A stretch of DNA of 36,367 nucleotides from a virus. Where the stretch lies: positions 1-36,367 of IMG/VR virus record IMGVR_UViG_3300037541_000777. The stretch is one strand, 5' to 3'. The notes beneath the pieces were generated by a model. That model saw nothing but the letters and a program-made list of their open reading frames with translations, did not search any database and was not told where the DNA came from. Each line of letters begins with the position of its first letter. Position 1 is the stretch's first letter. Shown piece by piece: positions 2,038-36,086 of this stretch. The position numbers and the translations under genes were made by a program.

Positions 2038-2895
2038 CTAGGCGCCGTCGAGGGTGACGGAGGTGCGGTTGCCGGAGCCGTCGAGGGTGCCAGAAACGCG
2101 GACGGTGGCACCATCGAGGCCGGTAAACTCCATCGTGCTGGTGCCGGCGCCGGTGGATTTGCCGGCCATCACACTGGCGAGTAGGCGCAGGATCTCGGCG
2201 GCGGTGTAGCCGCTCTCGATCACTTCGGTCCACGGGTTGCTCGCGCCGCCGGCGTCGTTGAGTTTCTCGCCCATCGTGCCGGGCTCGTCGTTGGCGGTGG
2301 CCACGGCCGACCACACGGCGCGGGCGAGCGACTCGGGCGAGAGCTCGGTAAACGATGAGCTCTCGCCGGACATGGCGAGCAGGCCCTTGAGATCGGCGGT
2401 GCCGGAGACCGAGAGCACGCCAGAGCCGGCGACGGGCACGATCATACTCAGGCCGGCCGTGGGCGTGAGCGTCCAGGTCGCCTCGCCGGTGAGGCCGATC
2501 GTGAGGGAGAGCACGGCGTCGGCCGTGGTGAGGGTGAGCGTGGCCTCGCCGCTGAGGGCGATGACGAGGGAGAGACTGGCGCCGGACACGGCGAGGGTGA
2601 GCGTGGCCTCGCCGCTGATGGGTGCGCCCGCGATGAGGGCGGCGGCGGCGGTGAGCGCGGAATCGGCGGTGCTATTGCCGGCCGACATCGCCCCACCGAC
2701 GAGCGGCGCGAGGATGCACGCGCGGCTCTCAAACGACCCCTCGGGGATGCTCGCGGTGGGCGTAACGACGGAGTTGGCAAAAAACGTGATTTGCCGCGCA
2801 CGTTGTTGGGCGGCCATATCAAACGCGGGACTCCCGACTAGGCCGATCAGGGATCTGCCACGGATGTCGGAGAAATTATTGGGCCAGAGCGCCAC
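2038..2895 (-). CDS. Repetitive beta-rich virion-associated protein, copy A
   Basis: A 285-residue protein starting with GTG. Residues about 75-165 contain repeated strands of the form SGEATLTL, SGASLSLV and TGEATWTL. The C-terminal 95 residues carry a segment I recognise from many phage structural proteins, with the motifs ESLARAVWSA and ESGYTAAEILRLLASVMAGK and a final beta hairpin. A paralogue at 35218-36078 is nearly identical from about residue 48 to 200 but differs in the first 45 residues and in the last hairpin. It may be a decoration or receptor-contacting protein; the biochemical role is unknown. It follows the 292-residue gene with 9 bases between. Confidence 0.72.
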   Translation of the reverse strand: MALWPNNFSDIRGRSLIGLVGSPAFDMAAQQRARQITFFANSVVTPTASIPEGSFESRACILAPLVGGAMSAGNSTADSALTAAAALIAGAPISGEATLTLAVSGASLSLVIALSGEATLTLTTADAVLSLTIGLTGEATWTLTPTAGLSMIVPVAGSGVLSVSGTADLKGLLAMSGESSSFTELSPESLARAVWSAVATANDEPGTMGEKLNDAGGASNPWTEVIESGYTAAEILRLLASVMAGKSTGAGTSTMEFTGLDGATVRVSGTLDGSGNRTSVTLDGA

Positions 2896-2904
2896 GTTTT
2901 TTGT

Positions 2905-3783
2905 TTAACCCCAGACGGTCTCGGTGTGGCCGACGAACGTGGTGCTTGCGGCGACCGCGCCGCCCGCAACCAAGATGAAGCCGAGGCACGCGCCATCAGG
3001 GATGATCGGGAGCGAGGGCGTTTGGCTTAAAGTATCTTTGTTGTGATAGAGCGAAAGAACACCGAGCGGGATCTCCATGATCGGGCGGGCGAGCACGAGC
3101 GCGCCGGTGCCGGTGTTGGCGGCGGAAAACGTAACCGTGGCGACGTTGCGCACGCCGTAGTCGCCAGAGGCGAGGGGCAAGAAAGGCCCGTAATTATTGG
3201 CGGCGACGCCGCTGTGGGAAATGTGCGGCGTGATGGCGGAGGCCGTCATGGCGACGGTGACGGGGAGGGTGTTGCCCGTGTTGCCATCTTGGTCGGTGTA
3301 GCTGAGCGCGATGTTTTGCGCGGTGGCGCCAGCGGTCGCGGTCTGGACCCAATAGAGCCGGGTGCCGACGCCGTTGGCGGCGCGGAGCGAGGGCGTGCCG
3401 GTGAGCGTCTGCGCCGTGGCCGTGTTGTTGCTGATGCCGGGCCAGTAGCCCTCGATGTCCACGAGGAGCAGCGTTGAAGGGATGCCGGTGGCGGCGGTCG
3501 TGATCGCGCCCAGGTTGAGGAGGTGCTTGATGCTCGCGGCCACATCGCCGCCGTGGCGGATGCCGAAAATCTGCGTGCCGTTGCCGGTGGCCTCGTCGCA
3601 CTCGCGGAAGGCCAGCGCGGTGCCGGCCCAGGCATTGGCCACGGGGCTGCCGGCGAGTGAGGTGGTGTCGTAGGAGCGGCCGGCGACGTAGGCGGCGGCG
3701 CCGGTGATCTTGTTCCAGTCGGAGCGCCAGCGTTGACCAGAGCTAAGAGCAGATACGATTGCGTTGATTGAGGTGAGGGCCAT
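2905..3783 (-). CDS. Virion-associated protein of a three-copy family, copy A
   Basis: A 292-residue protein without signal peptide or membrane helix. It is glycine-, alanine- and threonine-rich with many short beta segments. The C-terminus (GACLGFILVAGG, ending TVWG) matches the C-termini of the neighbouring 3804-4682 product and of the truncated gene at the window's right end. I infer a surface or decoration protein of the virion, because it sits between portal and capsid genes with other small structural genes. The last 124 bases of the window are identical to 3062-3185 in this gene. No known enzyme motif was seen. An ATG after an A-tract is used as start. Confidence 0.68.
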   Translation of the reverse strand: MALTSINAIVSALSSGQRWRSDWNKITGAAAYVAGRSYDTTSLAGSPVANAWAGTALAFRECDEATGNGTQIFGIRHGGDVAASIKHLLNLGAITTAATGIPSTLLLVDIEGYWPGISNNTATAQTLTGTPSLRAANGVGTRLYWVQTATAGATAQNIALSYTDQDGNTGNTLPVTVAMTASAITPHISHSGVAANNYGPFLPLASGDYGVRNVATVTFSAANTGTGALVLARPIMEIPLGVLSLYHNKDTLSQTPSLPIIPDGACLGFILVAGGAVAASTTFVGHTETVWG

Positions 3784-7173: not shown

Positions 7174-7194
7174 GGGCGCGGAGGCCGGAGAGGT

Positions 7195-7224
7195 GCCCAC
7201 GGAATACACGGAACACACGGAAAG
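7195..7224 (-). repeat. Triple-nonamer repeat, copy 2
   Basis: Same orientation as most copies. It lies in the leader between terminase and portal, outside any supported gene, and forms the left arm of an inverted pair with copy 3. Confidence 0.85.
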
Positions 7225-7271
7225 GGGACCGGAGAAAAAATCACAAACGCACGGATTGAGGCGGCGCTTTG

Positions 7272-7301
7272 CTTCCGTGTGTTCCGTGTGTTCCGTGGGC
7301 C
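7272..7301 (+). repeat. Triple-nonamer repeat, copy 3 (inverted)
   Basis: The only copy in opposite orientation. It is the reverse complement of copy 2 over about 26 bases with one mismatch and ends six bases before the terminase stop codon. The pair could fold into a long hairpin in the leftward transcript. Confidence 0.85.
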
Positions 7302-7306
7302 ACTAC

Positions 7307-9172
7307 TCAAAAGATCGCGCCGGCGTCGCCGCTGTTTTCGGGCGGGGCGGCGCGCAAGAAACGGTCGTGCGCCATGATGAGCGCCACGATGCCGTCGATC
7401 TTCTCGGAGCTTTTTTCCTTGTCGGGTTTGATGTTGCCGGCGCTGTCGCCGCTCGCGGCGCAGTTGCTCGCCATCCAGCGGAGCACGGGGTGGTCGAAGT
7501 GCAGGAGCTTTTCCGTAAGCACGAGTTTTTCTATGGCCTTGCTCGGGGCGTTGAGGGTCAAAAAACCTTGGCGCACGGGCACGCATTGATAGCCGTCGCC
7601 GCTGAGCTGGGTGATAAGCTGGGTGACGTTATACGGATCAAAAGCGATCTCGGAGATCTGATAGACCGCGCCCAGGCGGAGGATGTGGGCGCGGATGGCA
7701 TCGTAGTCCACGATGTTGCCGGGGGTGGTGAATAAAAAACCTTCGTCGCGCCATTGGTCGAAGCGGATGCCGGTCGCATCGACGCGGGCCGGGAGATTGT
7801 CCTCGGGGATGAAGAGGAAGGGGAGCGTGGCGTAGAAACCGCCGCCGAGGTCGAACTCCAGGACAAAGGCAAAAAAATCGCCCACGCTCGCGCCGTCGAT
7901 CGCGGCTTTGCAAGGGGCGGTGCGGAGGGCGGCGAGCAAGTTTTCGCGGGTGTCGAATCGGCCGTTGCTCCGCCCGCACGCGGTCCACTTGGCCATGTTG
8001 ATCCAGCGCACCGACTGCTCGGTCCAGAGGCAGAAGTTGAGGCGCTTGATGAGATTGGCCTCGGTGGGGACGGTGGCGGCGGTGCCGATCTGCTCGCGGA
8101 GGTAGGAGGCGGGGAGGATCGTATCGAGGCCGGGGTTGGCCTTTTTCCACGCGGCGGGATCTCGCCAGTCGTCGCACGCGGGGCAGTTTTCATCGGGCTG
8201 GTCGAGGCCTTTTTCTAGGCACGCCGGGCAGGGGTCGAGCGTGCACACGTAGGCAAACCACGCATCATTCTGCGCGGTGCCCTCGAGGATGCGGACGGAG
8301 CTCTCGTGGTGTTGGCGACACACGGAGGTGCGGCCGAATCCGGAATTGGTTATTTCTAGGATGAGCGCATTTTGCCGGCGCTTGGTGCCGGCGCGGATCT
8401 TGGCCTGGACGGTGCCATCGGGGTGGGCGTGGAGCTCGTCGATGATGCCGATATGCACGCGCTTGCCGTCGAGGTTGTTGGCCTCGGAGCTAAGCGGGCG
8501 GAAGACGCCGTCGCCGTTGGTGATCGATCCGACTTGCAGCGCCAGGCGGCGGCGGAGCTCGGGCGAGGCCTCGACCATCATCTTCGCATCTTTGAAACAA
8601 ATGGCCGCCTGGTCTTTGGAGACGGCGGCGGAATAGATCTCGGGGGCGGTCTCGCGGTCGAGGGTGAGGCCGCCGAGGCCGATACCGGCGGCGAGCGGGG
8701 TCTTGCCGTTGCCCTTGCCGATCTCGACGTAGGCGTTGCGGAAACGGCGGAAGCCATCGGCGCGGTACCAACCGAAGAGGGATCCGATGATAAACGCTTG
8801 GAAATCGTGCAGGATGAACGGGGTGTTTTCCTCGAGGTGCAGGACCGATTCGAAGAAGAGGAGCCAGGCCTCGGCCTTGTCGGCACGCCACACGAGGGCG
8901 GGGGCCGGAGAGGTGCCCACGGAACACACGGAAGACACGGAAGCCGGAAGGGGGCGGCCGTGATCGTCGAAGCCGGCGCGGGCGAGGTCGGCGAGGTGGC
9001 GCTCGCAGGCCATACGGACAAAGCGCCCGGCGAGGATTTCGCCGGCCACGACGCCGCGGGCGTAGGCGTGCACGCGCGGCTCTTTGGGCGGCGGCGCCGC
9101 CGGGCGGCCCGTAGCACGGGCGGGCAATTTGGTCACGCGGCGGGCGGTGGGTTTGGGGCGGAGGGTGGGCAC
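7307..9172 (-). CDS. terL: Terminase large subunit
   Basis: The packaging motor: an N-terminal ATPase drives DNA into the prohead and a C-terminal RNase H-like nuclease cuts concatemers. In the 621-residue protein, IGKGNGKT at about 151-158 is the Walker A motif and VHIGIIDEL at 239-247 the Walker B motif with catalytic Glu. DGASVGD near 426-432 fits the first nuclease aspartate region. Two oddities are visible. Residues 78-86 (SVSSVCSVG) are a translated nonamer repeat inserted between the N-terminal helices and the ATPase. A cysteine cluster (C310, C315, C318, C330, C333) could bind zinc. The start is GTG at 9172, three bases after the small subunit's stop. Confidence 0.95.
   Translation of the reverse strand: MPTLRPKPTARRVTKLPARATGRPAAPPPKEPRVHAYARGVVAGEILAGRFVRMACERHLADLARAGFDDHGRPLPASVSSVCSVGTSPAPALVWRADKAEAWLLFFESVLHLEENTPFILHDFQAFIIGSLFGWYRADGFRRFRNAYVEIGKGNGKTPLAAGIGLGGLTLDRETAPEIYSAAVSKDQAAICFKDAKMMVEASPELRRRLALQVGSITNGDGVFRPLSSEANNLDGKRVHIGIIDELHAHPDGTVQAKIRAGTKRRQNALILEITNSGFGRTSVCRQHHESSVRILEGTAQNDAWFAYVCTLDPCPACLEKGLDQPDENCPACDDWRDPAAWKKANPGLDTILPASYLREQIGTAATVPTEANLIKRLNFCLWTEQSVRWINMAKWTACGRSNGRFDTRENLLAALRTAPCKAAIDGASVGDFFAFVLEFDLGGGFYATLPFLFIPEDNLPARVDATGIRFDQWRDEGFLFTTPGNIVDYDAIRAHILRLGAVYQISEIAFDPYNVTQLITQLSGDGYQCVPVRQGFLTLNAPSKAIEKLVLTEKLLHFDHPVLRWMASNCAASGDSAGNIKPDKEKSSEKIDGIVALIMAHDRFLRAAPPENSGDAGAIF
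8915..8943 (-). repeat. Triple-nonamer repeat, copy 4 (inside terL)
   Basis: Read in frame within the terminase as SVSSVCSVG. The flanks (GCCGGAGAGGTG before, GCCGGAA after, plus strand) are shared with copy 9, giving about 46 bases of near-identity. Confidence 0.92.
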
Positions 9173-9698: not shown

Positions 9699-10376
9699 TT
9701 AAGGAGTGGCCCGCAAATCGGCGCGGATCTCGGAGGAGTTGCCCACGGAACACACGGAAGACACGGAAGCGCCGGAGGCTTGGGAAACGGTGTCGCCGTG
9801 CGACCCGTGCGCGCCGCGGAAGCCGCCGTCTTCGGTGGCGGTTTTGGTGTCGTGCTGGCGTTTGCTCAGGGCTTGGAGATTCCACTCGGCCCAGAATAAA
9901 TTCTGGTCGCCGCGGTGCGGGATGATGTGGTCGCACACTTCGACGCGGTCGGCGGCGGTGATCAGCATCGTCTCAGGCGTGACGCCGGGGCCGAGGTGCA
10001 ACGTGTAGATCGGATGGGCCGCCAAGAAATCGCCGCCGGGGCGACCGGGGGCGAGAAAGTAGATCGAGCGGTTTTGCAACTGGGCCGCGATGCGTAGGCC
10101 GTGGAACTCGAGGGCGAGCCGGGGCGACCACGCCGGGCCGCGGGTGAGGTAGCCCAGGGAAAAAGGAAACTGCCGGCGGATGGCGAGCGAGAGCGCGGCC
10201 CAGCGGTGGCCGTAGCCGCGGGACGCGGCCGAGCCGCGGCGGTCGTCGAGCGTCGAGCGGGTGGCCGCGATCTCGGCGCGCTCGGCGGTGGCGTGGGCGC
10301 TGCAGTAGCGCGAGCCAGGCGCGGCGAGGCCGGAGCAACGAAGGGCGCGGCAGGGCTTGGCGGGAGCGTAGGGCAT
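9699..10376 (-). CDS. HNH endonuclease of the packaging module
   Basis: HNH nucleases next to terminase assist specific DNA cleavage during packaging in several phages. The 225-residue protein has an N-terminal zinc-binding pattern (C9, C14, C25, H28), the segment SRGYGHRWAAL common in this family, and an HNH core with DH at 149-150, H154, N166 and H175. After about residue 180 the family homology seems to stop. The tail contains GAHGSHG and a translated nonamer repeat (SVSSVCSVG near 204-212), so the C-terminus looks extended by repeat sequence. The start ATG directly follows eight A residues, which also include the upstream TAA. Confidence 0.88.
   Translation of the reverse strand: MPYAPAKPCRALRCSGLAAPGSRYCSAHATAERAEIAATRSTLDDRRGSAASRGYGHRWAALSLAIRRQFPFSLGYLTRGPAWSPRLALEFHGLRIAAQLQNRSIYFLAPGRPGGDFLAAHPIYTLHLGPGVTPETMLITAADRVEVCDHIIPHRGDQNLFWAEWNLQALSKRQHDTKTATEDGGFRGAHGSHGDTVSQASGASVSSVCSVGNSSEIRADLRATP
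9741..9769 (-). repeat. Triple-nonamer repeat, copy 5 (3' end of HNH gene)
   Basis: Read in frame as SVSSVCSVG near the C-terminus of the HNH endonuclease. Confidence 0.92.
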
Positions 10377-10382
10377 TTTTTT

Positions 10383-10631
10383 TTAGGCGGCGGCGGAGGA
10401 GGCGGAGGAGTTGCCCACGGAACACACGGAAGACACGGAAGCCGGAGCCGGAGCCGGAGAAGGGGACGGGCGCCGGGCTTGCTCGTAGATGATCCAGCAT
10501 TGAGAGCCGAAGGCGTAGGGGTTGATCGCGGTGGGGTCGCCGGCATCGCGGCGGCCGTAGCAGGCGGCCCGATGCCAGGCGGGAGGGGTGGCGGGTTTCA
10601 CGCGGCGGGGCGGTGTTGGGCTTGGCGGCAT
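10383..10631 (-). CDS. Small hypothetical protein ending in nonamer-encoded tail
   Basis: An 82-residue protein with a Pro/Arg-rich N-terminus, a middle containing CYGRRDAGDPTAINPYAFGS and CWIIYEQARR, and an Ala/Pro/Ser tail that includes the translated repeat SVSSVCSVG. It starts 34 bases inside the end of the upstream gene in another frame and stops six bases before the HNH start. No domain was recognised. Reality is supported by close packing and by a protein-like middle section; the tail is low-complexity. Confidence 0.55.
   Translation of the reverse strand: MPPSPTPPRRVKPATPPAWHRAACYGRRDAGDPTAINPYAFGSQCWIIYEQARRPSPSPAPAPASVSSVCSVGNSSASSAAA
10413..10441 (-). repeat. Triple-nonamer repeat, copy 6
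   Basis: Read in frame as SVSSVCSVG at the C-terminus of the 82-residue hypothetical protein. Confidence 0.92.
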
Positions 10632-11259: not shown

Positions 11260-11499
11260 TTAGAAGGTGCCCACGGAACACACGGAAGACACGGAAGCCG
11301 GAGAAGTGGCGCGGGTGCGGCGGCGAGAGACGGCGAGGATGCGGATGGCGGCGGCGCGGCGGGCCTCGAGGGGTGCGGCGGGGTTGTCCATCTCGCGGCG
11401 GTCGTAGGTGCCGGCGACGGCGGTTTCGCAATCGGGGCAAAGCATCGTCTCGGGGAGCTTTTGGCCGCGACACGGGCATCGGGTGTTTTCGTAGGACAT
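11260..11499 (-). CDS. Small zinc-ribbon-like protein with nonamer-encoded tail
   Basis: A 79-residue protein. The N-terminus has paired cysteines (RCPCRGQKL and LCPDCETA), a pattern suited to one zinc ribbon. It is followed by a basic helical segment with EARRAAAIRI and a C-terminal tail that is a translated nonamer repeat (SVSSVCSVGTF). It sits between the two proteins that share a C-terminal domain, so a role in replication or its control is plausible but unproven. The start ATG has no Shine-Dalgarno sequence. Confidence 0.68.
   Translation of the reverse strand: MSYENTRCPCRGQKLPETMLCPDCETAVAGTYDRREMDNPAAPLEARRAAAIRILAVSRRRTRATSPASVSSVCSVGTF
11269..11298 (-). repeat. Triple-nonamer repeat, copy 7
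   Basis: Read in frame as SVSSVCSVG. It forms the last residues of the zinc-ribbon-like protein, whose stop follows directly. Confidence 0.92.
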
Positions 11500-12498: not shown

Positions 12499-12891
12499 TT
12501 AGTCGCGGAAGGCCCGGGCAAATTCGGGGTGGGAGAGGGCGCCGTGGAAGGGGCCGCCGCGCTCGGCGTGCTCGAGGTCCCAACGGGGGCCGAGGTTGCG
12601 GAACGCTCGGTTGCGGGCGAGCGTGCCACGGGTGAGCTCGAAAATGGTGCGCGTGCCACGGAGCCGGGCATAGGCGCGGGGCCATAGCTCGGAATCGCGC
12701 CGGCCGGCGCCGGGGATGCGCTTGAGCTCGCAGGCGCGGGCGGGGCGGTTGTGGAAAACCTCGGCGGCCTCGGCGGCGGTGAAGACGGGGCGGGCGTAGT
12801 TGGGCGGGAAGGGCGTGGGCGTGGGCGTAGTTTCGGAGGGGGTGCCCACGGAACACACGGAAGACACGGAAGCTGAGGCGGGGGAAATCAT
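12499..12891 (-). CDS. Hypothetical early protein with nonamer-encoded N-terminus
   Basis: A 130-residue protein whose start overlaps the upstream stop (ATGA). Residues 8-16 are the translated nonamer repeat SVSSVCSVG. After a Pro/Thr linker comes FTAAEAAEVFHNRPARACEL, which may be a helix-turn-helix-like segment, and a charged C-terminal half with GPRWDLEHAERGG. The normal protein may therefore begin after the repeat, with the repeat added to its front. No family was recognised. It lies between a small membrane protein and the replication initiator. Confidence 0.6.
   Translation of the reverse strand: MISPASASVSSVCSVGTPSETTPTPTPFPPNYARPVFTAAEAAEVFHNRPARACELKRIPGAGRRDSELWPRAYARLRGTRTIFELTRGTLARNRAFRNLGPRWDLEHAERGGPFHGALSHPEFARAFRD
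12844..12872 (-). repeat. Triple-nonamer repeat, copy 8
   Basis: Read in frame as SVSSVCSVG at the N-terminus of the 130-residue early protein. Confidence 0.92.
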
Positions 12892-13055
12892 CGGCGAAGG
12901 GTGCGGACGGGGTCGAAGGTATCGGCAAGATCGCGGCGGGTGCGGCGGGGCCAACGGGTACTAGTGAGAAATTCGGCGACGGTGCAGAGCAGCCAGGCCA
13001 CGCCAAAGGCGCAGAGGACCAGCCAAAAGCCAAAACCGATCAGAGCCCTTTTCAT
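12888..13055 (-). CDS. Small single-pass membrane protein
   Basis: A 55-residue protein: basic start (MKRA), one membrane segment at about residues 5-30 with IGFGFWLVLCAFGVAW, then a basic cytoplasmic-type tail (RWPRRTRRDL). It is coupled by ATGA overlaps to the gene before it (13052-13471) and the gene after it (12499-12891), which supports it as real. Possible roles include superinfection exclusion or anchoring a replication factor, but nothing in the sequence decides. A longer reading from 13094 would lie in the preceding gene. Confidence 0.62.
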   Translation of the reverse strand: MKRALIGFGFWLVLCAFGVAWLLCTVAEFLTSTRWPRRTRRDLADTFDPVRTLRR

Positions 13056-13471
13056 GCGGCGAGCCCCTGGGCGGGGGCGAGGGCGGCGATGCAACGGGCG
13101 CGGAGGGCTTGGTAATCGGCCTCGACGGTGGGCTTTTGCGCCCGGCGCGAGGTGATGGCGGCGACTGCAAAGGCGACGAGGTCGTGCGTGCGGCAGAAGG
13201 CCCGCGCGAGGGCGGCGGTGCGCTGGGGCAAGAGCTCGGCGGCGAGGGCGATGGCCATGTGCCGGGGCAATACGATATCATCGGTGCGGCGGGAGCCGAG
13301 CAGTTGGGCGACCGCAAAGCCGTAGTGGGCGGCGACGATCTCTTGGATGAGGCGGACGGCGGCGTTGGCCTCGGGGACGCGGGCGGAGTCGGCCCGGGCG
13401 ATGAGCCGCATGGTCTTGCTTATCTGGGCTTGCTGGCGAGCAAGCCGGGCGAGCAGTTGGGGAATGGTCAT
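13052..13471 (-). CDS. Stand-alone DnaA domain IV-like DNA-binding protein
   Basis: A 139-residue protein. Residues about 40-125 align by eye with the C-terminal DNA-binding domain IV of the initiator DnaA: IQEIVAAHYGFAVAQLLGSR corresponds to its first helices, LPRHMAIALAAEL to the R-P-R-x-x-A-M-x-L segment, and THDLVAFAV to the signature helix that reads the DnaA box. The ATPase domain is absent. DnaA uses this domain to bind DnaA boxes, so this protein may occupy phage or host DnaA boxes, either to start phage replication or to block the host. It is coupled to the downstream membrane protein by ATGA and lies upstream of the replication initiator. Confidence 0.75.
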   Translation of the reverse strand: MTIPQLLARLARQQAQISKTMRLIARADSARVPEANAAVRLIQEIVAAHYGFAVAQLLGSRRTDDIVLPRHMAIALAAELLPQRTAALARAFCRTHDLVAFAVAAITSRRAQKPTVEADYQALRARCIAALAPAQGLAA

Positions 13472-13864: not shown

Positions 13865-14185
13865 TTAGGCGGCGATTTTTTGGGAAAGGGGAGCAGGCCG
13901 CGCCGGGGCGGGCTTGGCGGGGCGCTTTTTCTGGGTCTCGCGCTCGAGGGCGGCGTCGAGTTGGCTGCGGGCGTAGCGGCCATTTTGCGCGGAGGTGACG
14001 CGCCATCGGCCGGCCCAGCGGTAAAAGGCCGAGTCGCTCTCGTGCTTGGTGTAGGCGATGGCCTCGGTGGTGGTGAGGATCCGGTCGGTGAGCGTAGGCC
14101 GGGCGACGGCCTCGCGGATGAGGGCGAGCAACTGGTCGCGCTGGGCGAGGTCGACCGTGACGGTGATGGGATCGAGCGAGGCCAT
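13865..14185 (-). CDS. Excisionase-like helix-turn-helix protein
   Basis: A 106-residue protein. Residues about 33-80 resemble the winged helix of excisionase/MerR-type small DNA-binding proteins: ILTTTEAIAYTKHES, then AFYRWAGRWRV and NGRYARSQLDAALERE. In these families, the first helix pair reads DNA and a wing with a G-R/K-Y motif follows. The C-terminus is Pro/Ala/Lys-rich. In a phage with a tyrosine integrase, a small protein of this kind may bend DNA for excision or act as a regulator. It begins three bases from its neighbour's stop, inside the early operon rather than beside the integrase. Confidence 0.6.
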   Translation of the reverse strand: MASLDPITVTVDLAQRDQLLALIREAVARPTLTDRILTTTEAIAYTKHESDSAFYRWAGRWRVTSAQNGRYARSQLDAALERETQKKRPAKPAPARPAPLSQKIAA

Positions 14186-14470: not shown

Positions 14471-14568
14471 GGGGAGCGGCGGAAGGCGCGGAAGGCGGCG
14501 GGGAGCAGGGCGAGGCCAAGGCCGGCGAGCAGGCCGGAGAGCCAGAGGATGAGGTCGGGGGAGATCAT
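14467..14568 (-). CDS. 33-residue membrane peptide gene
   Basis: A tiny gene with one membrane segment (LILWLSGLLAGLGLALLPAA) and a basic end (FRAFRRSP). Its ATG overlaps the stop of the upstream gene and its TGA overlaps the start of the downstream gene, both as ATGA. This double coupling is the main evidence that it is translated. Function unknown; a regulator of a membrane process or a host-excluding peptide are possibilities only. Confidence 0.55.
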   Translation of the reverse strand: MISPDLILWLSGLLAGLGLALLPAAFRAFRRSP

Positions 14569-14786
14569 GGGGTCGTGGCACGACGGGCGGCTTTGCGGTC
14601 GCGCTTGGCTTGGGCGGCAATGATGCGGTCGCGCTCGGCCGGGGTGAGCGCGCGGGGCAAAAGGTCGAGGGCCTTCTCCGCGGCGCGGATGGCCGAGGGG
14701 CGGGCGCCTTGGCTGGCGATGATCTCGGAGGCGGCGGCCACGGCGAGGAGGTTGATGACGGCGACGGATGGGTGATGGATTCGCAT
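14565..14786 (-). CDS. Hypothetical early protein
   Basis: A 73-residue helical protein with an alanine-rich N-terminal half (INLLAVAAASEIIASQG) and a basic C-terminal part (LTPAERDRIIAAQAKRDR). The ATG at 14786 is preferred; a TTG two codons upstream is possible. It ends in an ATGA overlap with the membrane peptide gene. No domain was recognised. Confidence 0.55.
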   Translation of the reverse strand: MRIHHPSVAVINLLAVAAASEIIASQGARPSAIRAAEKALDLLPRALTPAERDRIIAAQAKRDRKAARRATTP

Positions 14787-14797
14787 GGTCAAAAGGC

Positions 14798-15154
14798 TCA
14801 GGCGGCGGGCGGGAGGTTGGTGGCTTCGGCGAGCTCGTGATCGGCGGCGGCGCTGCGCCGGATGTGGCGGACGGCTTGCTCAACTGCCGGGAGATCGGCG
14901 GAGTTGAAGCCGTCGCGGGCGGCGTCTTCCAGGAGGCGGAGGGCCTCGAGGTCGGCTTGCTCGGCGGAATAGGCGAGGGCCGAGGCGGCGGTGCAGGCGG
15001 CGGCGCTGTCGGCCGCGATGTCCTGGGCGACGGTGAGGGCGGGGAGCGCGGCATAGTCGCGCAGGGCGCGGGCGGAGGCGGAGCGGCGGGCGAGCCAACG
15101 GTTTTGCTCGCGGATCAGGTGGCCGAGGGAGGGCCGGGGGGGCGCGGTGTGCAT
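14798..15154 (-). CDS. Hypothetical early helical protein
   Basis: A 118-residue, strongly helical, alanine-rich acidic protein (AQDIAADSAAACTAASALAY, then AEQADLEALRLLEDAARDG). No membrane helix, zinc pattern or DNA-binding motif is apparent. It is the second gene of the early operon after the regulator at 15194-15478. Function unknown. Confidence 0.55.
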   Translation of the reverse strand: MHTAPPRPSLGHLIREQNRWLARRSASARALRDYAALPALTVAQDIAADSAAACTAASALAYSAEQADLEALRLLEDAARDGFNSADLPAVEQAVRHIRRSAAADHELAEATNLPPAA

Positions 15155-15193: not shown

Positions 15194-15478
15194 TTAGGCG
15201 GCGCGGCGGGCGCGGGCGCGGAGGGTGTCGAGCGCGGCGGGTAGGCCGATGTCCTCGGCGAGGGCGAGGAGCTCGGCACGCAAAGGGGCGTCGCTCGTGG
15301 GCCAGTGGCCGTCGCGCTTGAGCTTTTCCTCAATGGCGGCGCAGACGTAGGCGGACCAAAGGCCCTTCTCGCCGTCGGGCGATGCGACGGACTTGGCGAG
15401 AGTGAGCAGGTTAGCCGGGCCGGAAAAAGCTTCCTTGACGGCTCGGGAGGGTTTGGCGGGGGAGATCTCGGCGGGCAT
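15194..15478 (-). CDS. Leftward regulator of a divergent homologous pair (ribbon-helix-helix-like)
   Basis: A 94-residue protein and the first gene of the leftward early operon. Residues about 11-55 (VKEAFSGPANLLTLAKSVAS, then WSAYVCAAIEEKLKRD) are clearly homologous to the divergent plus-strand gene at 15569-15904. The order of a short strand, helix, turn and second helix resembles ribbon-helix-helix DNA-binding proteins, though no family signature is certain. A perfect palindrome begins five bases upstream of its start codon, so the gene is probably controlled by itself or by its partner. The start at 15478 is preferred; one upstream would place the palindrome inside the coding region. Confidence 0.65.
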   Translation of the reverse strand: MPAEISPAKPSRAVKEAFSGPANLLTLAKSVASPDGEKGLWSAYVCAAIEEKLKRDGHWPTSDAPLRAELLALAEDIGLPAALDTLRARARRAA

Positions 15479-15482
15479 GGTG

Positions 15483-15511
15483 GTATTGGTAGGATACTTT
15501 ACTACCAATAC
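15483..15511. promoter_or_regulatory. Palindromic operator of the divergent switch
   Basis: A perfect inverted repeat with 10-base arms (GTATTGGTAG and CTACCAATAC) and a 9-base spacer. It lies between the divergent regulators, in AT-rich sequence unlike the surrounding GC-rich DNA. An extra TGGTA half-site-like element abuts its left side. Position directly before the start of the leftward gene suggests repression by promoter occlusion. I did not find convincing -35/-10 boxes. Confidence 0.78.
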
Positions 15512-15568
15512 TCAAGAAAAAACATGGAATTTCTTTTCTACCGTAAAAATCCGGTTTAGGTTTGGCTT

Positions 15569-15904
15569 ATGGGTAGGCCGCGAAAACAGCCACAGGATAG
15601 AGTGAAAAAGGACGCTTTCAGCGGGCCGCGCTACTTGTTGGCGGCGGCGAAGCAGGCGGCGGGAGTGGCCGAGGGGAAAGATTTCTCCCCGTGGGTGGTG
15701 GCCGCGATCCGCGAAAAGTTGCAACGGGATGTGCCGGACTTAATCGCGAAGATGCGGGCCGAGATGCAGGCCGCGGCGGTGCGAGCTAATCCTTCGCCAG
15801 ACTGGGACGATCTCAAGACGGCCGAGGCGGCGCCGCCTACCGGCGCGGATCTCGGTTCGCAGGTGATCGCCGCCGCGCTAAAGAAGAAAACCGGCGGGCG
15901 ATGA
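15569..15904 (+). CDS. Rightward regulator of a divergent homologous pair (ribbon-helix-helix-like)
   Basis: A 111-residue protein, one of only two supported plus-strand genes. Residues about 12-52 (VKKDAFSGPRYLLAAAKQAA, then FSPWVVAAIREKLQRD) match the leftward regulator, including the AFSGP strand and the AI-x-EKL-x-RD helix. It has a basic N-terminus (GRPRKQPQDRVKK) and a longer C-terminal part. Placement opposite the early operon and on the integrase side suggests the lysogeny repressor, with the leftward paralogue in a Cro-like role; this is inference. The ATG has only a weak AGG upstream. Confidence 0.68.
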   Translation: MGRPRKQPQDRVKKDAFSGPRYLLAAAKQAAGVAEGKDFSPWVVAAIREKLQRDVPDLIAKMRAEMQAAAVRANPSPDWDDLKTAEAAPPTGADLGSQVIAAALKKKTGGR

Positions 15905-16025
15905 GCCGGTGTCGGGGCCAGAGCCGGGCGACTTTACGGAGGGAGCGGGTGCTCATGTAAGAGCAGAGAAGGCCGACGAGTTGCAAGAGCTCGGCTTCGC
16001 GTGGGGTGAGCTTGGTGAAGGGCAT
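15837..16025 (-). CDS. Possible small LuxR/GerE-like helix-turn-helix fragment
   Basis: A 62-residue reading frame starting FTKLTPREAELLQLVGLL, which resembles the first helix of a LuxR-type DNA-binding domain. The rest (basic, Arg-rich) does not continue the pattern convincingly. Its last 68 bases run antisense over the end of the plus-strand regulator. It may be a remnant of a regulator or a chance frame in GC-rich DNA. Confidence 0.33.
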   Translation of the reverse strand: MPFTKLTPREAELLQLVGLLCSYMSTRSLRKVARLWPRHRLIARRFSSLARRRSPANRDPRR

Positions 16026-16089
16026 AGCAAGAGATACGCGCGCGCCCGGCTAAACTCGCCACAACGAGAAGGATGTGGTGCAATGGGGC

Positions 16090-16518
16090 ATGAAGCTATT
16101 TTTCACGATCTTCGGGGCGATCTTGGCGGCGGCGGCGGTGGTGTGGGGCGTGATGTCCTGGTCGAAGAGCGCGGATCGGGACAAAGAGCGCGCCCGCGCG
16201 GCGGCGGTGCATCTCGCAAAATCGGCGAAGATGTTAAAAGAGCTCGTCGAAGAAAACAGCGGGAAACTACCCGTGGGCGACATCTGGGAAAAATCGAGCC
16301 TCGACGCGCCGGCACACTTTGCCGCGACGATCTCAGGGGGGTGGCCGAGCGACGGGCCCGGGAGGTGGGGCGTGCGGATCGATTTCTTTTCCTCCTATGG
16401 TACGGCCGTCGAAACCGCAAAGGCCGGCGGAGATCCGCGGAGCGTGGCGTGGGCCGATGAGATGGCCAAGCGGTTGGCCGCGGCGGCGGCGAGAATCGAC
16501 GGCAAGCCTAGCCCGTAG
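16090..16518 (+). CDS. Membrane-anchored hypothetical protein
   Basis: A 142-residue protein with one N-terminal membrane helix (FFTIFGAILAAAAVVWGVMSW) followed by a charged, helical region (SADRDKERARAAAVHLAKSA) and a mixed C-terminal domain with GRWGVRIDFFSSYGTA. It likely projects from the membrane. GTG codons at 16075 and 16078 could also start it; AAGGA lies just upstream of these. It is convergent with the integrase and overlaps its end by 11 bases. Expression from the rightward promoter region suggests a lysogenic or superinfection-exclusion function, unproven. Confidence 0.6.
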   Translation: MKLFFTIFGAILAAAAVVWGVMSWSKSADRDKERARAAAVHLAKSAKMLKELVEENSGKLPVGDIWEKSSLDAPAHFAATISGGWPSDGPGRWGVRIDFFSSYGTAVETAKAGGDPRSVAWADEMAKRLAAAAARIDGKPSP

Positions 16519-17644
16519 TGCCGGAAAGACTACGGGCGCGGGCGGCGAGCACGGTGAAGAGCGCGGTGCCAGGTGCGGCGAGCTCAGGCGGCCGGAGCGC
16601 GTGGTAGGCGGTGGCCATGGCGTGGTCGACCTGCGTGCGGTCGAGGGTGAGTTGGCCGCGATAAACTTGATGGAGAAGCGTCGGGCGGCCCTCGTGCCCC
16701 AGCCACTCGGAGACGCGGCCGGCGTCGCGGGTGTAGGTGATGAGGTAGCTCGCGGCGGTGTGGCGGAAACAATCGTGGGGCCACGAGCTGAGGCCGGCGG
16801 CGTGCGCTGCGCGCTCGCGGAGGACGCGGGCGGTGACGGGCGAGACGTGGCGCGCGCCATCGATGCCAGGCGTGAGCCAAAGCCAGAGCGTGGCGGGGAG
16901 ATTCTCGAGCAGGCGGGTTTTGCCCGTTTTGGAAATCTCGGCGGGGATGCGGATGAAGCGGCCGGCGAGGTTGATGTGCTCCCAACGGAGCCAGGGCTTG
17001 TCGCGGCCGGCGATCTCTTCGGGCCGGATGCCGGCAAAAAGCATGAGCGCGCACGCGGAGCGGCCGGGGCCGGCGTCGGCGAGGATGGCGGCGGCGTGGG
17101 CGGGCGTAAGGATCATGCGCTCAGACTCGGCGCCGCGCACGGCAAAGGCGTCGAGGCCCAGCGTGGCGTCGGCGCTCACGAGCGGCGGATCTTCGGCAAT
17201 GGCCCAACGCCAGAGCGCGCGGGCGGAGCGGATGATCGAGACGCGGGACGCATCGCCCACGGAGAGCTCGTTGACCCATCGGGCGAAGCGGCCGCGGGTG
17301 ATCTCGTCGATGGGTTGGTCGCCGAAGTCGCGGGCGATGGGCGCGAGGAAATTTTCATACCACTCGAGGGTCGCGTTGCGAATCGGTTTGCCGCGGCGGG
17401 TTTTCTTGCGGGTGCGGCTCAGGAGGAAACGATCGACCGCGACCGCCACGGGCGTGCGCTCGAGGGCGCGCTTGCCGTCGAGGGCAATGGTCGCCGCCTG
17501 GACAAGCGAGATGCCGGAGCCGGCGAGCAGTTGCAAAGCGCGGCGGGCGTCGTGCCGCTCGGCGGTCGTGATGCGGAGGCGCGTGCGCTCGGTCTCGATG
17601 TAGCGGGAAGGCGCGGCCGGAGGGATCGAGGAGGGCGAGGGCAT
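16508..17644 (-). CDS. int: Tyrosine-type site-specific integrase
   Basis: Catalyses recombination between phage attP and host attB. The 378-residue protein has an N-terminal core-binding domain (about 60-150) and a catalytic domain with the expected residues: R207 in LMLFAGIRPEE, a lysine in EISKTGKT (about 239-242), H290 and R294 in PHDCFRHTAAS, H317 in EWLGHEG, and nucleophile Y328 in LLHQVYRG. The start lies only 16 bases after the 3' end of a complete tRNA-Arg gene on the same strand, a classic arrangement for an integrase beside a tRNA attachment site. A run of T (17652-17658 on the coding strand) lies between them. No Shine-Dalgarno sequence was found. Confidence 0.95.
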   Translation of the reverse strand: MPSPSSIPPAAPSRYIETERTRLRITTAERHDARRALQLLAGSGISLVQAATIALDGKRALERTPVAVAVDRFLLSRTRKKTRRGKPIRNATLEWYENFLAPIARDFGDQPIDEITRGRFARWVNELSVGDASRVSIIRSARALWRWAIAEDPPLVSADATLGLDAFAVRGAESERMILTPAHAAAILADAGPGRSACALMLFAGIRPEEIAGRDKPWLRWEHINLAGRFIRIPAEISKTGKTRLLENLPATLWLWLTPGIDGARHVSPVTARVLRERAAHAAGLSSWPHDCFRHTAASYLITYTRDAGRVSEWLGHEGRPTLLHQVYRGQLTLDRTQVDHAMATAYHALRPPELAAPGTALFTVLAARARSLSGTTG

Positions 17645-17660: not shown

Positions 17661-17735
17661 TGGTGCCCGCGGAGGGAATCGAACCCCCAATTTCACGTTC
17701 GAAGCGTGATGTGATAGCCTTTCCACCACGCGGGC
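17661..17735 (-). tRNA. tRNA-Arg (anticodon TCG)
   Basis: A full cloverleaf can be folded: acceptor GCCCGCG with CGCGGGC, a 4-bp D stem (GTGG/TCAC), anticodon stem TCACG/CGTGA with loop CTTCGAA, a 4-base variable loop, T stem GGGGG/CCCTC around TTCGATT, then A and an encoded CCA. All stems pair (one G-T pair in the T stem, one in the D stem). It would read CGA codons. It sits directly upstream of the integrase in the same orientation, so it is both a probable functional tRNA and the likely attachment locus. Confidence 0.95.
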
Positions 17736-28480: not shown

Positions 28481-28657
28481 TTACGGGAGCGGGAGAAGTT
28501 TGGCGGGGGGGCGGGAGAGGATGGCGGGGTCGCGGGGATCGTGGGTTGTGGCGCAACCTGAGAAGGCGAGCACTGCGATGAGGCAAACAAGCCGGAGAGG
28601 TGCCCACGGAACACACGGAAGACACGGAAGCCGGAAAGATTGGAAAAAAAGTTTCAT
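28481..28657 (-). CDS. Short lipoprotein with nonamer-derived signal region
   Basis: A 58-residue protein. A lipobox (VLAFSGC) follows a hydrophobic segment. Before it, residues about 9-18 (RLPCLPCVPW) are the translation of a nonamer repeat in a frame different from that used in other genes. The mature part is short and Pro-rich (HDPRDPAILSRPP, then KLLPLP), as is typical of small outer-membrane spanins. The start overlaps the stop of the cysteine-hydrolase-like gene (ATGA). It may be the true Rz1-like partner of the cluster. Confidence 0.55.
   Translation of the reverse strand: MKLFFQSFRLPCLPCVPWAPLRLVCLIAVLAFSGCATTHDPRDPAILSRPPAKLLPLP
28602..28630 (-). repeat. Triple-nonamer repeat, copy 9
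   Basis: Translated within the 58-residue lipoprotein in the LPC-LPC-VPW frame. Its flanks are almost the same as those of copy 4 in terL. Confidence 0.9.
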
Positions 28658-29536: not shown

Positions 29537-31381
29537 TTACGAGGAGACGGCTTTGATAACGGAGAAGTTGAAGACGGGCGCTTCGGAGGTAGTGCCGCCC
29601 GTGGTGGCGAAGCTGATGCGGAAGGAACCCGCGCCAACGGCGGTCACGGAGATCATGTAAAGGTCGGTCCCGCTGCGCTGGTTGACGATGATCGTGTCAG
29701 TCGCGGCCACGGCGGAATTGGTGACGGTGAATGATTGCCACGTCGCGCTGCCTGCGGCGGTGAACAGCGTGATTGCGCCTGCGACGGTGTTGAGCGTCAC
29801 GCCCGTGGTGCGGCTCGTGATCTGCGTGACTGCGCCGCCCGCGCCGGTAGCGTAGCCGATGCCGCCCGTTGCGGAGGTCGAGCGGATTTGTGCGCCCGCC
29901 ACGATGTTGCCGCCGCCCACTGCCACGTTGGTGGCTGCGCTGCCGTTGCCGACTGTGAACGCGCCAACCGTAGAGCTAGACGCCGATGTGGTGTCGGTTA
30001 TGTTGACCTTGCCGTTTTGCAGAACATAGCCACCCGCTGCGGTAAGTGCGAAGTAATTCCCGTTATTGATGCGCAGGGCAACGGTGCCGCCAGTGGGCGC
30101 GTTTAAGATTGTGTTACTTGCATCGCCCGAGAGCCCGTAATTGCTGGTTGAGGGCGACGCTTGGCGGAACCAAAGGCCAATAGTCGATGGAATGGTCGTG
30201 CCGTCTATTTGAAACAAAATTCCGCCGTTGTTGAGATTCAGCGAACCGCCGAAATACGCCGCCCCCGCATTGCCGAAACCGCCGCTGTTGATAAGCGAGC
30301 CGGTCGTGGTGGACGTGCTGGCGGTGGTGCCGGAAACAGACAAAGTGTTGGTAAACGTCGCCGCGCCCGTGGCTCGGACAATACTGAACCAATCGTTGCC
30401 ACCGACTGAAAGCCGGAAGTCTCCGCTCGTTGCTATGTTGCGTAAAGACCACTGCCCAACCCCGCTCTGATTGAGCGCAAAATTTACTTCGGTGCCGGTT
30501 GACCCAAAAACGGAAACAGGAGCCGAAAACGTCGCCGCGCCCGTCGCGCTTGCAAAGGTCAACGCCGTGCCGAAGCTGCCTGTGCCTAGGGTCAGGTTGG
30601 ACGCGGCTGCGCTGGTGATGCTGTTGATCGAGGTGAGCGCGGTGGGGAGGGAGAGCGTGGGGTTGCCCGCTACGCCGTCGCCGTTGGTCACGGTGATCTG
30701 GCCCGCCGTGCCGGTCAGCGTGCGGGCGGCGGCGGTCGAGGCCGAGGTGCGGGCGATAAGGCCGTTGGCGGAGATGCCGGAAATGGCATCGAGCTCGGCG
30801 TCGAAGGCTTGGACGTTGGTGCCGATCACGAGCGCGGCCGAGGTGCGGAGCGCGGCGGCGTCGGCGAGGGTGAGCAGGCTGCGGCCGTAGCTCGCCGTGG
30901 TGAGCGCGGCGATGGCGGTGAGATCGGCGTCGAGCGGTTGCGAGGCGGCCTGGGCGGCGGCGATGGCGGTGGCTTGTGCGGTCGAGACCGGCTTGTCGGC
31001 ATCGGCGGTGTTGGTGACGAGGTTGAGGGCGAGCGTGGTCTTGAGGGTGGCGTCGCTGGCCTCGGTGAGCAGGCCACGGCCGAAGCTCGTCGTGGTGAGG
31101 GCGGCGATGGCGGTGAGGTCGGCGTCGATCGGCTGGGCATCGGCGTTGATCGTGTTGTTGGCGGAGGCGACGATGTTTTTGAGCTGGGCGCGGAGCACGG
31201 CCGCCGTGATCGCGCCCGTCGTGCTCGGGAGGTTGGTGTCGATCTCGGTATAGAGCGCGGCGCGGCTCTTGGCGGTCTGGGCGCCGAGCGGGGCGGTGAG
31301 CAGGGCGACGACCAACGCCAGCAGGGTGCCCACGGAAAACACGGAAGACACGGAAGGACGGAAAAAGCGGGAGAGGCGCAT
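29537..31381 (-). CDS. Tail-fibre-like repeat protein with N-terminal signal peptide
   Basis: A 614-residue protein. Residues about 60-190 hold repeats of the kind common in tail fibres (QPIDADLTAIAALTT, LDADLTAIAALTTASYGRSL). The middle is beta-rich and low-complexity, the C-terminus (GAGSFRISFATTGG) a small beta domain. It opens with MRLSRFF, a nonamer-derived SVSSVFSVG and a hydrophobic LALVVALLTAPLGAQ, which together look like a secretion signal with cleavage after GAQ. A fibre with a Sec signal is unexpected. The start at 31381 is four bases after the head closure stop; earlier readings overlap that gene. The fibre sits between head and tail genes, not after J. Confidence 0.8.
   Translation of the reverse strand: MRLSRFFRPSVSSVFSVGTLLALVVALLTAPLGAQTAKSRAALYTEIDTNLPSTTGAITAAVLRAQLKNIVASANNTINADAQPIDADLTAIAALTTTSFGRGLLTEASDATLKTTLALNLVTNTADADKPVSTAQATAIAAAQAASQPLDADLTAIAALTTASYGRSLLTLADAAALRTSAALVIGTNVQAFDAELDAISGISANGLIARTSASTAAARTLTGTAGQITVTNGDGVAGNPTLSLPTALTSINSITSAAASNLTLGTGSFGTALTFASATGAATFSAPVSVFGSTGTEVNFALNQSGVGQWSLRNIATSGDFRLSVGGNDWFSIVRATGAATFTNTLSVSGTTASTSTTTGSLINSGGFGNAGAAYFGGSLNLNNGGILFQIDGTTIPSTIGLWFRQASPSTSNYGLSGDASNTILNAPTGGTVALRINNGNYFALTAAGGYVLQNGKVNITDTTSASSSTVGAFTVGNGSAATNVAVGGGNIVAGAQIRSTSATGGIGYATGAGGAVTQITSRTTGVTLNTVAGAITLFTAAGSATWQSFTVTNSAVAATDTIIVNQRSGTDLYMISVTAVGAGSFRISFATTGGTTSEAPVFNFSVIKAVSS
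31328..31355 (-). repeat. Triple-nonamer repeat, copy 10
   Basis: Read in frame as SVSSVFSVG inside the signal region of the fibre-like protein. The middle unit is changed (TTTTCC instead of TGTTCC). Confidence 0.9.
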
Positions 31382-32756: not shown

Positions 32757-34079
32757 TCAGGCGCCGAGAGCGTCGAGCATCGCGGCGAAGCTCTTGGGCC
32801 GAGCGACGCCGGCGTCGTAGTAGCTCGAGGCGACGAGCGTATAGAGGCCGGAGATGGCGTTGGTCTTGTCGCGCACCATCTCGAGGCTCACGCCGCCCCA
32901 GTAGGCGACGTAGAGATCCTGCCAGTTGCCGAAGAAGATCGCCGAGCAGACGCTCGACGAGCTGCCCTTGGTGAGCGTGCGGGAGATCGCGTTGGAGAAG
33001 AGGGCCTCGTAACCGTTGATCTGGCCGTCTTGCAGCAGCGTGACGGAATCGGTCGAGCTAAACTTGGCCGTCTGCTTGAGCTTGCCGCGGATCTGCCCGT
33101 TGGAGCAGTAGCGCAGGGAGCCGTTGAGGGCGTTGTTGGTATCGACCGCGGTCTCGAGGGCCACGAGGTGCGAGAGCGCGGGCGCGAGGCCGTTGGTGCC
33201 GCCGGCCACGGAGCCGATGCCGGAGGTGCCGGCGAGGCCGGAGGGCTCGTTGGTGCCGCCGCCGTGGAAGATGGCGACCTCTTGCACGGCGAGCATTTGC
33301 GCCGTGAGGTTGCGGCCCACGATGGCCTCGATCGCGGCCGAGCTCTGCTTGAGCAGGCGCTCGGAGATGTCGATGTAAGCCGGCAGGCGGCGGGGCGTGA
33401 GCGAAAGCATCGCCGTGAGGGGCGAGACTTCGTCGGCCGCGGCGTTCTCCGCCTTGGCGGCGGGAGCGGTGCCGGCGGTGAGGCGCGGGAGATCCAGATT
33501 GCCGACGAGGCCCTCGACGACCGTGGCGCCGAGCTGGCGAGCGATCGAGGCGTTGTAGAAATCATCGAGCAGGCCGCTCTTGACGGTGGCAACGGTCATG
33601 CCGCCTTGGTCGCCGGCCACGGAGGTCGTGCCGCTCGCGGTCATATCGCGGCGATTGACGCCACGGCGCACGAGCAGGCGCGGGAGCATGATGCCGCCGG
33701 CTTCGATGCCGGCGGAGCGGGCCTCGCGCTCGCCCTCTTGCAAGAGCTCGGCCTCGACGCCGTCGATGTTGCCGACATTGGCGCCGCGGGCTTGGCGGTG
33801 CAGGTGGTTGAGGACCTTGCCCAGGTCGAAGCGATCGACCGAGCGGACCTCGTCGCGGCTGAGCTCGACGGGCTTGTTGCCCTCGCGGGCGGATTGGCGG
33901 AACTCCGCATCGAAATCGGCGGCGGCCGTGGCGTGGCGGGTCTCGAGCTCGGCGAGCTTGGCGTCTTTGGCGCGCGCTTCGCCGGTGAGGGCTTTGCGGG
34001 TTTCGGAATCGAGGTAGGAGCGGATCTCTTTATTGATCGCGCCGACTTCCTCGTGCATTTTCTTTAGCTTCTGATTCAT
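32757..34079 (-). CDS. Major capsid protein (HK97 family)
   Basis: Forms the icosahedral shell. The 440-residue protein has a helical N-terminal delta domain (about 1-100, KKMHEEVGAINKEIRSYL) that acts as internal scaffold and is removed by the prohead protease. The HK97-type body follows: MTVATVKSGLLDDFYNASIA, RRLPAYIDISERLLKQSSAA, FHGGGTNEPSGL and a C-terminal DKTNAISGLYTLVASSYYDA. Length and order are normal. The protease gene lies just upstream. The start ATG has no Shine-Dalgarno sequence; its leader is rich in CA repeats. Confidence 0.95.
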   Translation of the reverse strand: MNQKLKKMHEEVGAINKEIRSYLDSETRKALTGEARAKDAKLAELETRHATAAADFDAEFRQSAREGNKPVELSRDEVRSVDRFDLGKVLNHLHRQARGANVGNIDGVEAELLQEGEREARSAGIEAGGIMLPRLLVRRGVNRRDMTASGTTSVAGDQGGMTVATVKSGLLDDFYNASIARQLGATVVEGLVGNLDLPRLTAGTAPAAKAENAAADEVSPLTAMLSLTPRRLPAYIDISERLLKQSSAAIEAIVGRNLTAQMLAVQEVAIFHGGGTNEPSGLAGTSGIGSVAGGTNGLAPALSHLVALETAVDTNNALNGSLRYCSNGQIRGKLKQTAKFSSTDSVTLLQDGQINGYEALFSNAISRTLTKGSSSSVCSAIFFGNWQDLYVAYWGGVSLEMVRDKTNAISGLYTLVASSYYDAGVARPKSFAAMLDALGA

Positions 34080-35221: not shown

Positions 35222-36078
35222 GGAGTGGCGTCGAGCGTGATGGCGGTGCGGTTGCCGTTGGCGTCGACGGTGGCGGTGATCCGGTTTTTGCTATCGGCGG
35301 CATCGCGAAAGGTGACGGTAGCGCCGCCGCCGCCGGAGGATTTGCCGGCCATCACGCTGGCGAGCAGGCGCAGGATCTCGGCGGCGGTGTAACCGCTTTC
35401 GATCACCTCGGTCCACGGGTTCGAGGCTCCGCCGGCGTCGTTGAGTTTGGCGCCCATCGTGCCGGGCTCGTCGTTGGCGGTGGCCACGGCGGACCACACG
35501 GCGCGGGCGAGCGACTCGGGCGAGAGCGCGGTAAACGACGAGCTTTCGCCGGACATGGCGAGCAGGCCCTTGAGATCGGCGGTGCCGGAGACCGAGAGAA
35601 CGCCAGAACCGGCGACGGGCACGATCATGCTCAGGCCCGCCGTGGGCGTGAGCGTCCAGGTCGCCTCGCCGCCGAGGCCGATCGTGAGGGAGAGCACGGC
35701 GTCGGCCGTGGTGAGGGTGAGCGTGGCCTCGCCGCTGAGGGCGATGACGAGGGAGAGACTAGCGCCGGACTCGGCGAGGGTGAGCGTGGCCGCGCCGCTG
35801 ATGGGTGCGCCTGCGATGAGGGCGGCGGCGGCGGTGAGCGCGGAATCGGCGGTGCTATTGCCGGCCGACATCGCCCCACCGACGAGCGGCGCGAGGATGC
35901 ACGCGCGGCTCTCAAACGACCCTTCGGGGATGCTCGCAGTCGGGGAAACGACGTCGTTGACGAAAAAAGAGAGCTGTCGCTGGGTGAGCTGTTGGCTCAT
36001 GCCGAGGCCCGCATCGCCAAATAGCCTGATGCGAGAGAACCCGCGCAGGTTGGAGAAATTGTTGGGCCAGAGCGCCAC
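35218..36078 (-). CDS. Repetitive beta-rich virion-associated protein, copy B
   Basis: A 286-residue paralogue of the 2038-2895 product. Both start with GTG and MALWPNNFS. They differ in residues about 10-45, then run nearly identical from PTASIPEGSFESRACI through the repeated SGEATLTL-type strands to ESGYTAAEILRLLAS. The final 40 residues differ again: here DAADSKNRITATVDANGNRT. Recombination or selection seems to act on both ends while the middle stays conserved. Role as in copy A, unknown. An A-tract precedes the start. Confidence 0.72.
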   Translation of the reverse strand: MALWPNNFSNLRGFSRIRLFGDAGLGMSQQLTQRQLSFFVNDVVSPTASIPEGSFESRACILAPLVGGAMSAGNSTADSALTAAAALIAGAPISGAATLTLAESGASLSLVIALSGEATLTLTTADAVLSLTIGLGGEATWTLTPTAGLSMIVPVAGSGVLSVSGTADLKGLLAMSGESSSFTALSPESLARAVWSAVATANDEPGTMGAKLNDAGGASNPWTEVIESGYTAAEILRLLASVMAGKSSGGGGATVTFRDAADSKNRITATVDANGNRTAITLDATP

Positions 36079-36086
36079 GTTTTTTT

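Follow-up and report, generated by a model that had tools for sequence, protein, structure and literature searches.

Divergent paralogous genes around a candidate operator in an uncultured phage: a putative lysogeny switch organized like mnt/arc of P22

Two small paralogous genes of an uncultured phage diverge from a short intergenic region that holds an inverted repeat. We infer that this locus probably encodes a pair of divergent paralogous repressors that share one operator and set the state of lysogeny and early transcription, in an organization like that of mnt/arc of phage P22. A more far-reaching reading, which we offer tentatively, is that the pair forms the primary switch of the phage, two paralogous ribbon-helix-helix (RHH)-like repressors acting through a single operator, with both DNA-binding domains and the operator replaced as one recombination unit and with C-terminal tails that are lineage-specific. 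The window, by which we mean the whole stretch analyzed, is an IMG/VR-style virus record of 36,367 bases with 67% G+C overall. The comparison rests on three phages: the window, a distant relative of 36.4 kb (L170; IMGVR_UViG_3300044656_000133), and a near-identical relative represented by a 12-kb fragment (L004; IMGVR_UViG_3300046009_014664). Coordinates are collected in Table 1.

Table 1. Features of the switch locus and its surroundings (window coordinates unless L170 is named)
Feature	Position	Strand	Description
Left protein gene	15194..15478	-	ORF, 94 aa; putative N-terminal DNA-binding domain at about residues 9-57, plus C-terminal tail
Right protein gene	15569..15904	+	ORF, 111 aa; N-terminal domain of the same type as in the left protein, C-terminal part longer
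Divergent intergenic region	15479..15568		90 bp, 36% G+C versus 67% in the window
Inverted repeat GTATTGGTAG-N9-CTACCAATAC	15483..15511		Perfect 10-bp arms; candidate operator; lies 4 bp ahead of the left ATG
Candidate operator core GGTAGGANANTTTNCTACC	15488..15506		19 bp; also present in L170, in the corresponding position
Exchanged block relative to L004	~15276..15837		Junctions near residue 67 (left protein) and near residue 90 (right protein)
Small antisense ORF	15837..16025	-	62 aa; overlaps the 3' end of the right gene; stop codon coincides with right edge of exchanged block
N-terminally hydrophobic protein	16075..16518	+	ORF downstream of the right gene; 97% identical in L004
Tyrosine integrase	16508..17644	-	PF00589, E 3e-6; phrog_1, E 1e-18
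Early-operon protein, excisionase/regulator-like (weak)	13865..14185	-	phrog_66, E 0.015; 100% identical in L004
Early-operon protein with DnaA C-terminal DNA-binding domain	13052-13471	-	PF08299, E 3e-12; without ATPase domain; 99% identical in L004
L170 left orthologue	L170 4997-5311	-	55% identical to window left protein
L170 right orthologue	L170 5403-5792	+	67% identical to window right protein over residues 1-67
Dispersed repeat CGGAGGAGTTGCCCACGGAACACACGGAAGACACGGAAGC	37-64, 7194-7300, 8914-8944, 9731-9770, 10403-10442, 11268-11298, 12834-12873, 28601-28631, 31327-31356

The left gene is the first in a leftward early operon. The N-terminal halves of the left and right proteins are 47% identical across 64 aa (BLASTP E 2e-8, from a single comparison), their alignment scores 12.9 standard deviations above 300 shuffles, and the motifs AFSGP and AI-x-EKL-x-RD are invariant between them. 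Both open reading frames and the segment common to their products are thus as the first-pass annotation had described them. The same measure of paralogy gives z = 10.4 for the L170 pair and 14.6 for the L004 pair. Two features had been overlooked in that annotation, namely the small antisense ORF and a possible alternative start of the left gene at an in-frame TTG at 15508; upstream in-frame starts are found also in L170 (ATG) and L004 (TTG). If the TTG were used, the palindrome would lie inside the left-gene coding sequence.

The inverted repeat is present with 10-base arms in an AT-rich gap, as had been claimed. Its description as a perfect palindrome holds for the arms, which are perfect, and fails for the 9-bp spacer, which is not fully symmetric. 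A palindrome of this quality was equalled by 9 of 4,000 and by two of 2,000 dinucleotide shuffles of the 90-bp gap in separate runs. The core GGTAGGANANTTTNCTACC is the sole match in the window at two or fewer mismatches, with 0.05 matches expected at up to three, and exact copies of it occur once in the window record and once in the L170 record. The candidate binding sequence for the left and right proteins can be written as GTATTGGTAGGATACTTTACTACCAATAC. No sigma-70-type consensus promoter was found in the divergent intergenic region.

The L170 gap contains GGTAGGAAAGTTTCCTACC, as far from the left ATG as is the window repeat; this sequence forms a 9+9 bp palindrome that was equalled by 12 of 2,000 shuffles. 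The window and L170 have a common gene order, running from the tail tip through an opposing integrase and a small hydrophobic-protein gene to the divergent right and left genes and the early operon. The switch pair is better conserved between these phages than are the other matched neighbors, for most of which identity is 33-42% (early genes 42%, 34%, and 33%; tail tip 35%). The window integrase has no match in L170, and the hydrophobic-protein genes beyond the right gene are unrelated; the window version has no homologue in L170, where another small hydrophobic protein occupies its place. The pair and its site therefore persist where neighbors do not. Whether pair and palindrome stay together in relatives had been put forward as a check on the proposed switch, and they do so, with the integrase/early-operon layout, in both related phages. 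A tRNA-Met (CAT) gene (L170 4841-4915, minus strand) lies directly downstream of the L170 left switch gene.

A palindrome next to a start codon might instead work at the RNA level, by folding the leader of the left mRNA into a stem-loop that hides the start codon. A hairpin adjoining the left ATG can be folded in all three leaders (z values of -3.2, -4.9, and -1.4 among the three phages), as is to be expected of RNA copied from any DNA palindrome. The core GGTAG...CTACC is identical in the window and L170, yet the outer pairs are lost in L170 and the inner pairs in the window, with no compensatory pairs. Since the sequence of the core is kept while pairing outside and inside it is lost, a DNA site read by protein is favored. 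The gap has, moreover, been exchanged along with both N-terminal domains (below), and we regard the RNA explanation as improbable.

By blastn, L004 and window DNA are about 95% identical up to 15276 and again from 15837, and no L004 homology is detectable between these points. The L004 pair proteins, of 79 and 78 aa, have reading frames that are open across both junctions and retain the C-terminal tails of the window proteins (LLALAEDIGLPAALDTLRARARRAA and TGADLGSQxIAAALKKKTGGR). Their N-terminal domains (KRIMVNL...NYIALLVERD and KRVMVNL...NYIENLISRD) are mutual paralogues with 48% identity (E 2e-10). They show little or no relationship to the window domains (z = 2.7 for the left and -0.2 for the right protein), and hhalign of the AFSGP profile against the L004 or P22 N-terminal domains gave no significant alignment (probability at most 1.8%). 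Whole-protein similarity between window and L004 was rejected as a sign of kinship of these domains, the score being due to the tail that they share. The possibility that L004 is a chimeric assembly was likewise rejected, because both junctions are in frame and the two new N-terminal domains are paralogues of each other. The L004 gap has an inverted repeat of its own, CACGGTG-CAA-CACCGTG, 6 bp before the left ATG, which is individually weak, being equalled by 131 of 2,000 shuffles.

Within each phage, both N-terminal domains are of one type, and the type changes together with the gap. This joint change is the best evidence, drawn from sequence comparison, that both proteins may read the same DNA, and a coordinated swap of both domains and the gap is what a switch of two proteins and one operator predicts. 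Domains of putative DNA-binding type and the intergenic region between them have been exchanged en bloc between near-identical phages, which is the sequence mark of a heteroimmunity cassette, and the block looks like an immunity cassette exchanged as one unit. We know of no report, among open papers, of a divergent paralogous pair exchanging both DNA-binding domains together.

The two edges of the block differ in setting. On the left, the junction lies where the paralogous domain gives way to the tail, and no overlapping ORF was noticed there. The right edge coincides with the stop codon of the antisense ORF, which is conserved in L004 (79% aa identity, with 9, 7, and 16 substitutions at codon positions 1, 2, and 3), so the right tail may have been retained through selection on this overlapping ORF and not on the tail itself. 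The product of the antisense ORF begins MPFTKLTPREAELLQL, which recalls a LuxR-type HTH; it has no Pfam match.

The window N-terminal domain type (AFSGP) is recognized by no family library used here: neither the window pair in searches of Pfam, NCBIfam, and PHROG nor, for RHH profiles, the L170 pair gave a match, and the window proteins fail to match PF03869 (Arc) at E up to 1, a family that is matched by P22 Mnt with E 4e-30 and by P22 Arc with E 5e-31. AlphaFold monomers of the window proteins, with a mean pLDDT of only 57, contain helices at residues 19-30 and 41-54 and at 21-31 and 43-55 and no strand. The helices of these low-confidence models are in the places expected for RHH. Foldseek with the structure models found nothing, and sequence and fold searches of the PDB with the window proteins were empty. 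The L004 pair matches PF07878 (RHH_5) at E 0.006 over positions 2-42 of 43, which is below the curated cut-off, and a profile of the L004 domain matches a small phage protein (E 5e-7) that in turn matches RHH_5 at E 9e-6. The L004 N-terminal domains are thus probably ribbon-helix-helix domains of RHH_5-like type. The window and L170 domains have an apparent order of strand, proline, helix, loop, serine, helix, which, together with the two predicted helices, would be consistent with RHH. They are called RHH-like here because of this residue order and because RHH_5-like domains replace them in L004, and would on these grounds be DNA-binding.

RHH proteins serve also as partition and relaxosome factors, and the pair could by the same token be architectural or segregation factors (in partition, the relaxosome, or excision as accessory), with the palindrome as an assembly site. 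The locus adjoins the integrase, and a plasmid pair of RHH-type factors has been described (PMC5675868). The site, however, is single and not iterated, and it adjoins the left start codon; pair and site have been kept although the window integrase has no L170 match; and a non-systematic look at the surroundings of the pair revealed no ParA-like gene. Of the explanations weighed here, we consider this the least likely.

The gene order asserted in the first-pass annotation, with one gene of the pair facing the early operon, the other facing a membrane-anchored protein gene, and the integrase opposing, is confirmed. By analogy to sieA of P22, the N-terminally hydrophobic product of the membrane-protein gene is a candidate lysogeny-expressed protein. 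A complete tRNA-Arg (TCG) gene at 17661-17735 (minus strand), present also in L004, lies directly upstream of the integrase start and is a possible attachment-site tRNA.

The searches covered few families, HTH_3, S24, and ANT (PF03374), in linear and perhaps incomplete records; all three phages were negative, whereas most of 14 control genomes were positive in the same searches. The HTH_3-type domain and the S24 peptidase in the repressor that characterize a CI/Cro switch are thus not found in these three records. It might nonetheless be that an undetected repressor elsewhere holds lysogeny and that the pair is a secondary module like P22 immI, tuning early genes or a single superinfection-exclusion gene. 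Lysogeny of P22 does not require immI (PMC11016777), no function has been assigned to many of the window genes, and the records, all three linear, may be incomplete. On the other side, the location of the pair, flanked by integrase and early operon in the window as in L170, is the usual one for a primary switch, and none of the three records yielded an antirepressor (ANT) or CI-like domain. We consider a secondary role unlikely, though less so than either the RNA or the segregation explanation.

Few further relatives came to light. Scans of viral contigs with single proteins returned few; among genome contigs the integrase had no match, and TerL led only to terminases from other phyla, all of them distant, and to no near relative; and tblastn against phage and plasmid collections gave no convincing match. 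A search with N-terminal-domain profiles over 180 loci revealed no further AFSGP pair, and the L004 type led only to generic RHH proteins. Two candidates were set aside: L174, a tail-only match to an unrelated protein without a divergent partner, and a Rhizobium phage "Arc" match of L004 (E 0.6), beside which no divergent paralogue is annotated.

Other features of the record concern its overall structure. A direct repeat of 1.05 kb, 91% identical, lies near both record ends (2143-3185 and 35326-36367), flanked by unrelated capsid-like genes at 142-1020 and 32757-34079. In L007, the TerL, portal, and fiber genes are linked directly to the protease and the 32757-34079 capsid, and nothing matches 142-1020. 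The window record may represent a permuted genome with part of a strain variant attached, or it may carry alternative capsid modules. A dispersed repeat of 28-40 bp, CGGAGGAGTTGCCCACGGAACACACGGAAGACACGGAAGC, has ten matches in the window and is found also in L007 and L004, and not in the L170 locus.

Under the preferred reading, that of two paralogous repressors sharing one operator, the left and right proteins would both recognize the GGTAGGANANTTTNCTACC site. The right protein would be a Mnt- or CI-like lysogenic repressor, made in the lysogen along with the downstream membrane protein, and its binding to the palindrome would block the left/early promoter; it is given this role because it is the longer of the two and has a membrane-protein gene behind it, just as sieA comes after mnt. 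An Arc- or Cro-like part, that of an early autoregulator limiting its own operon and the right gene, would fall to the left protein. Exchange of the block would alter immunity specificity.

Should concerted replacement prove true, the asymmetry of roles, maintenance as against early shut-off, would reside in the tails, and the block would supply only the address. Should the pair prove to be the primary switch, then an uncultured phage group would decide on lysogeny without CI/Cro, by means of one duplicated domain. The near-identical window and L004 form a natural domain-swap experiment, which predicts that the pair reads one site and that a change of immunity needs both domains and the site to be changed together. 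The locus also provides a concrete candidate operator sequence.

The locus has likenesses to several known systems. En-bloc exchange of immunity is familiar from lambdoid phages, and the divergent pair between integrase and early operon and its en-bloc exchange of specificity (heteroimmunity) resemble lambdoid CI/Cro. Here, however, no HTH_3 or S24 domain was found in the three records, the pair consists of paralogues of one family where CI and Cro are two HTH proteins with multipartite operators, and the exchange junctions fall inside both genes. Among RHH_5/CopG-like proteins (PF07878), the L004 pair is probably of this type, whereas the AFSGP versions of the window and L170 are undetected by PF07878. 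An RHH-type protein that maintains the lysogenic state, like the RHH-like repressors proposed here, is F55 of the archaeal virus SSV1 (PMC5569661); F55 differs in being single, with tandem direct repeats at several promoters and no divergent paralogue. Co-divergence of repressor and operator has been described in cluster A mycobacteriophages (PMC6550527).

The closest parallel is P22 immI (NC_002371), with mnt at 14519-14770 (minus strand), arc at 14861-15022 (plus strand), a 90-bp gap in which the promoters and operators of the two genes lie, and the membrane exclusion gene sieA on the far side of mnt; the paralogy of Mnt and Arc was confirmed by sequence comparison. In P22, Mnt acts as repressor of arc and ant, Arc as repressor of mnt and of the operon to which it belongs, and immI modulates lysogeny without being essential for it (PMC7549136, PMC11016777). 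The systems differ in that P22 has separate Arc and Mnt operators and the window a single palindrome, which speaks against our main reading. They differ also in that immI is a secondary immunity region controlling an antirepressor gene inside the late operon, whereas here no ant gene was found (PF03374), the early operon lies downstream of the left gene, and the pair stands between integrase and early operon; both P22 proteins match PF03869 and the window proteins do not. A further point of difference is that in the present phages the N-terminal domains and the candidate operator have been swapped as one block. Because immI is secondary and dispensable, the analogy alone does not make the pair the primary switch. 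Of the proposal in the first-pass annotation, a CI/Cro-like switch of two members of one family and of an unrecognized kind, the paralogous pair, the palindrome, and the layout recur in relatives, and what falls away is the novelty of the layout, for which immI is a precedent. In both systems, small paralogous genes diverge around a 90-bp gap with one or more operators (here predicted repressors and a candidate operator), one protein is larger (Mnt with its C-terminal segment, the right protein) and one smaller (Arc, the left protein), and a gene lies beyond the larger member, sieA beyond mnt in P22 and a hydrophobic-protein gene beyond the right gene here.
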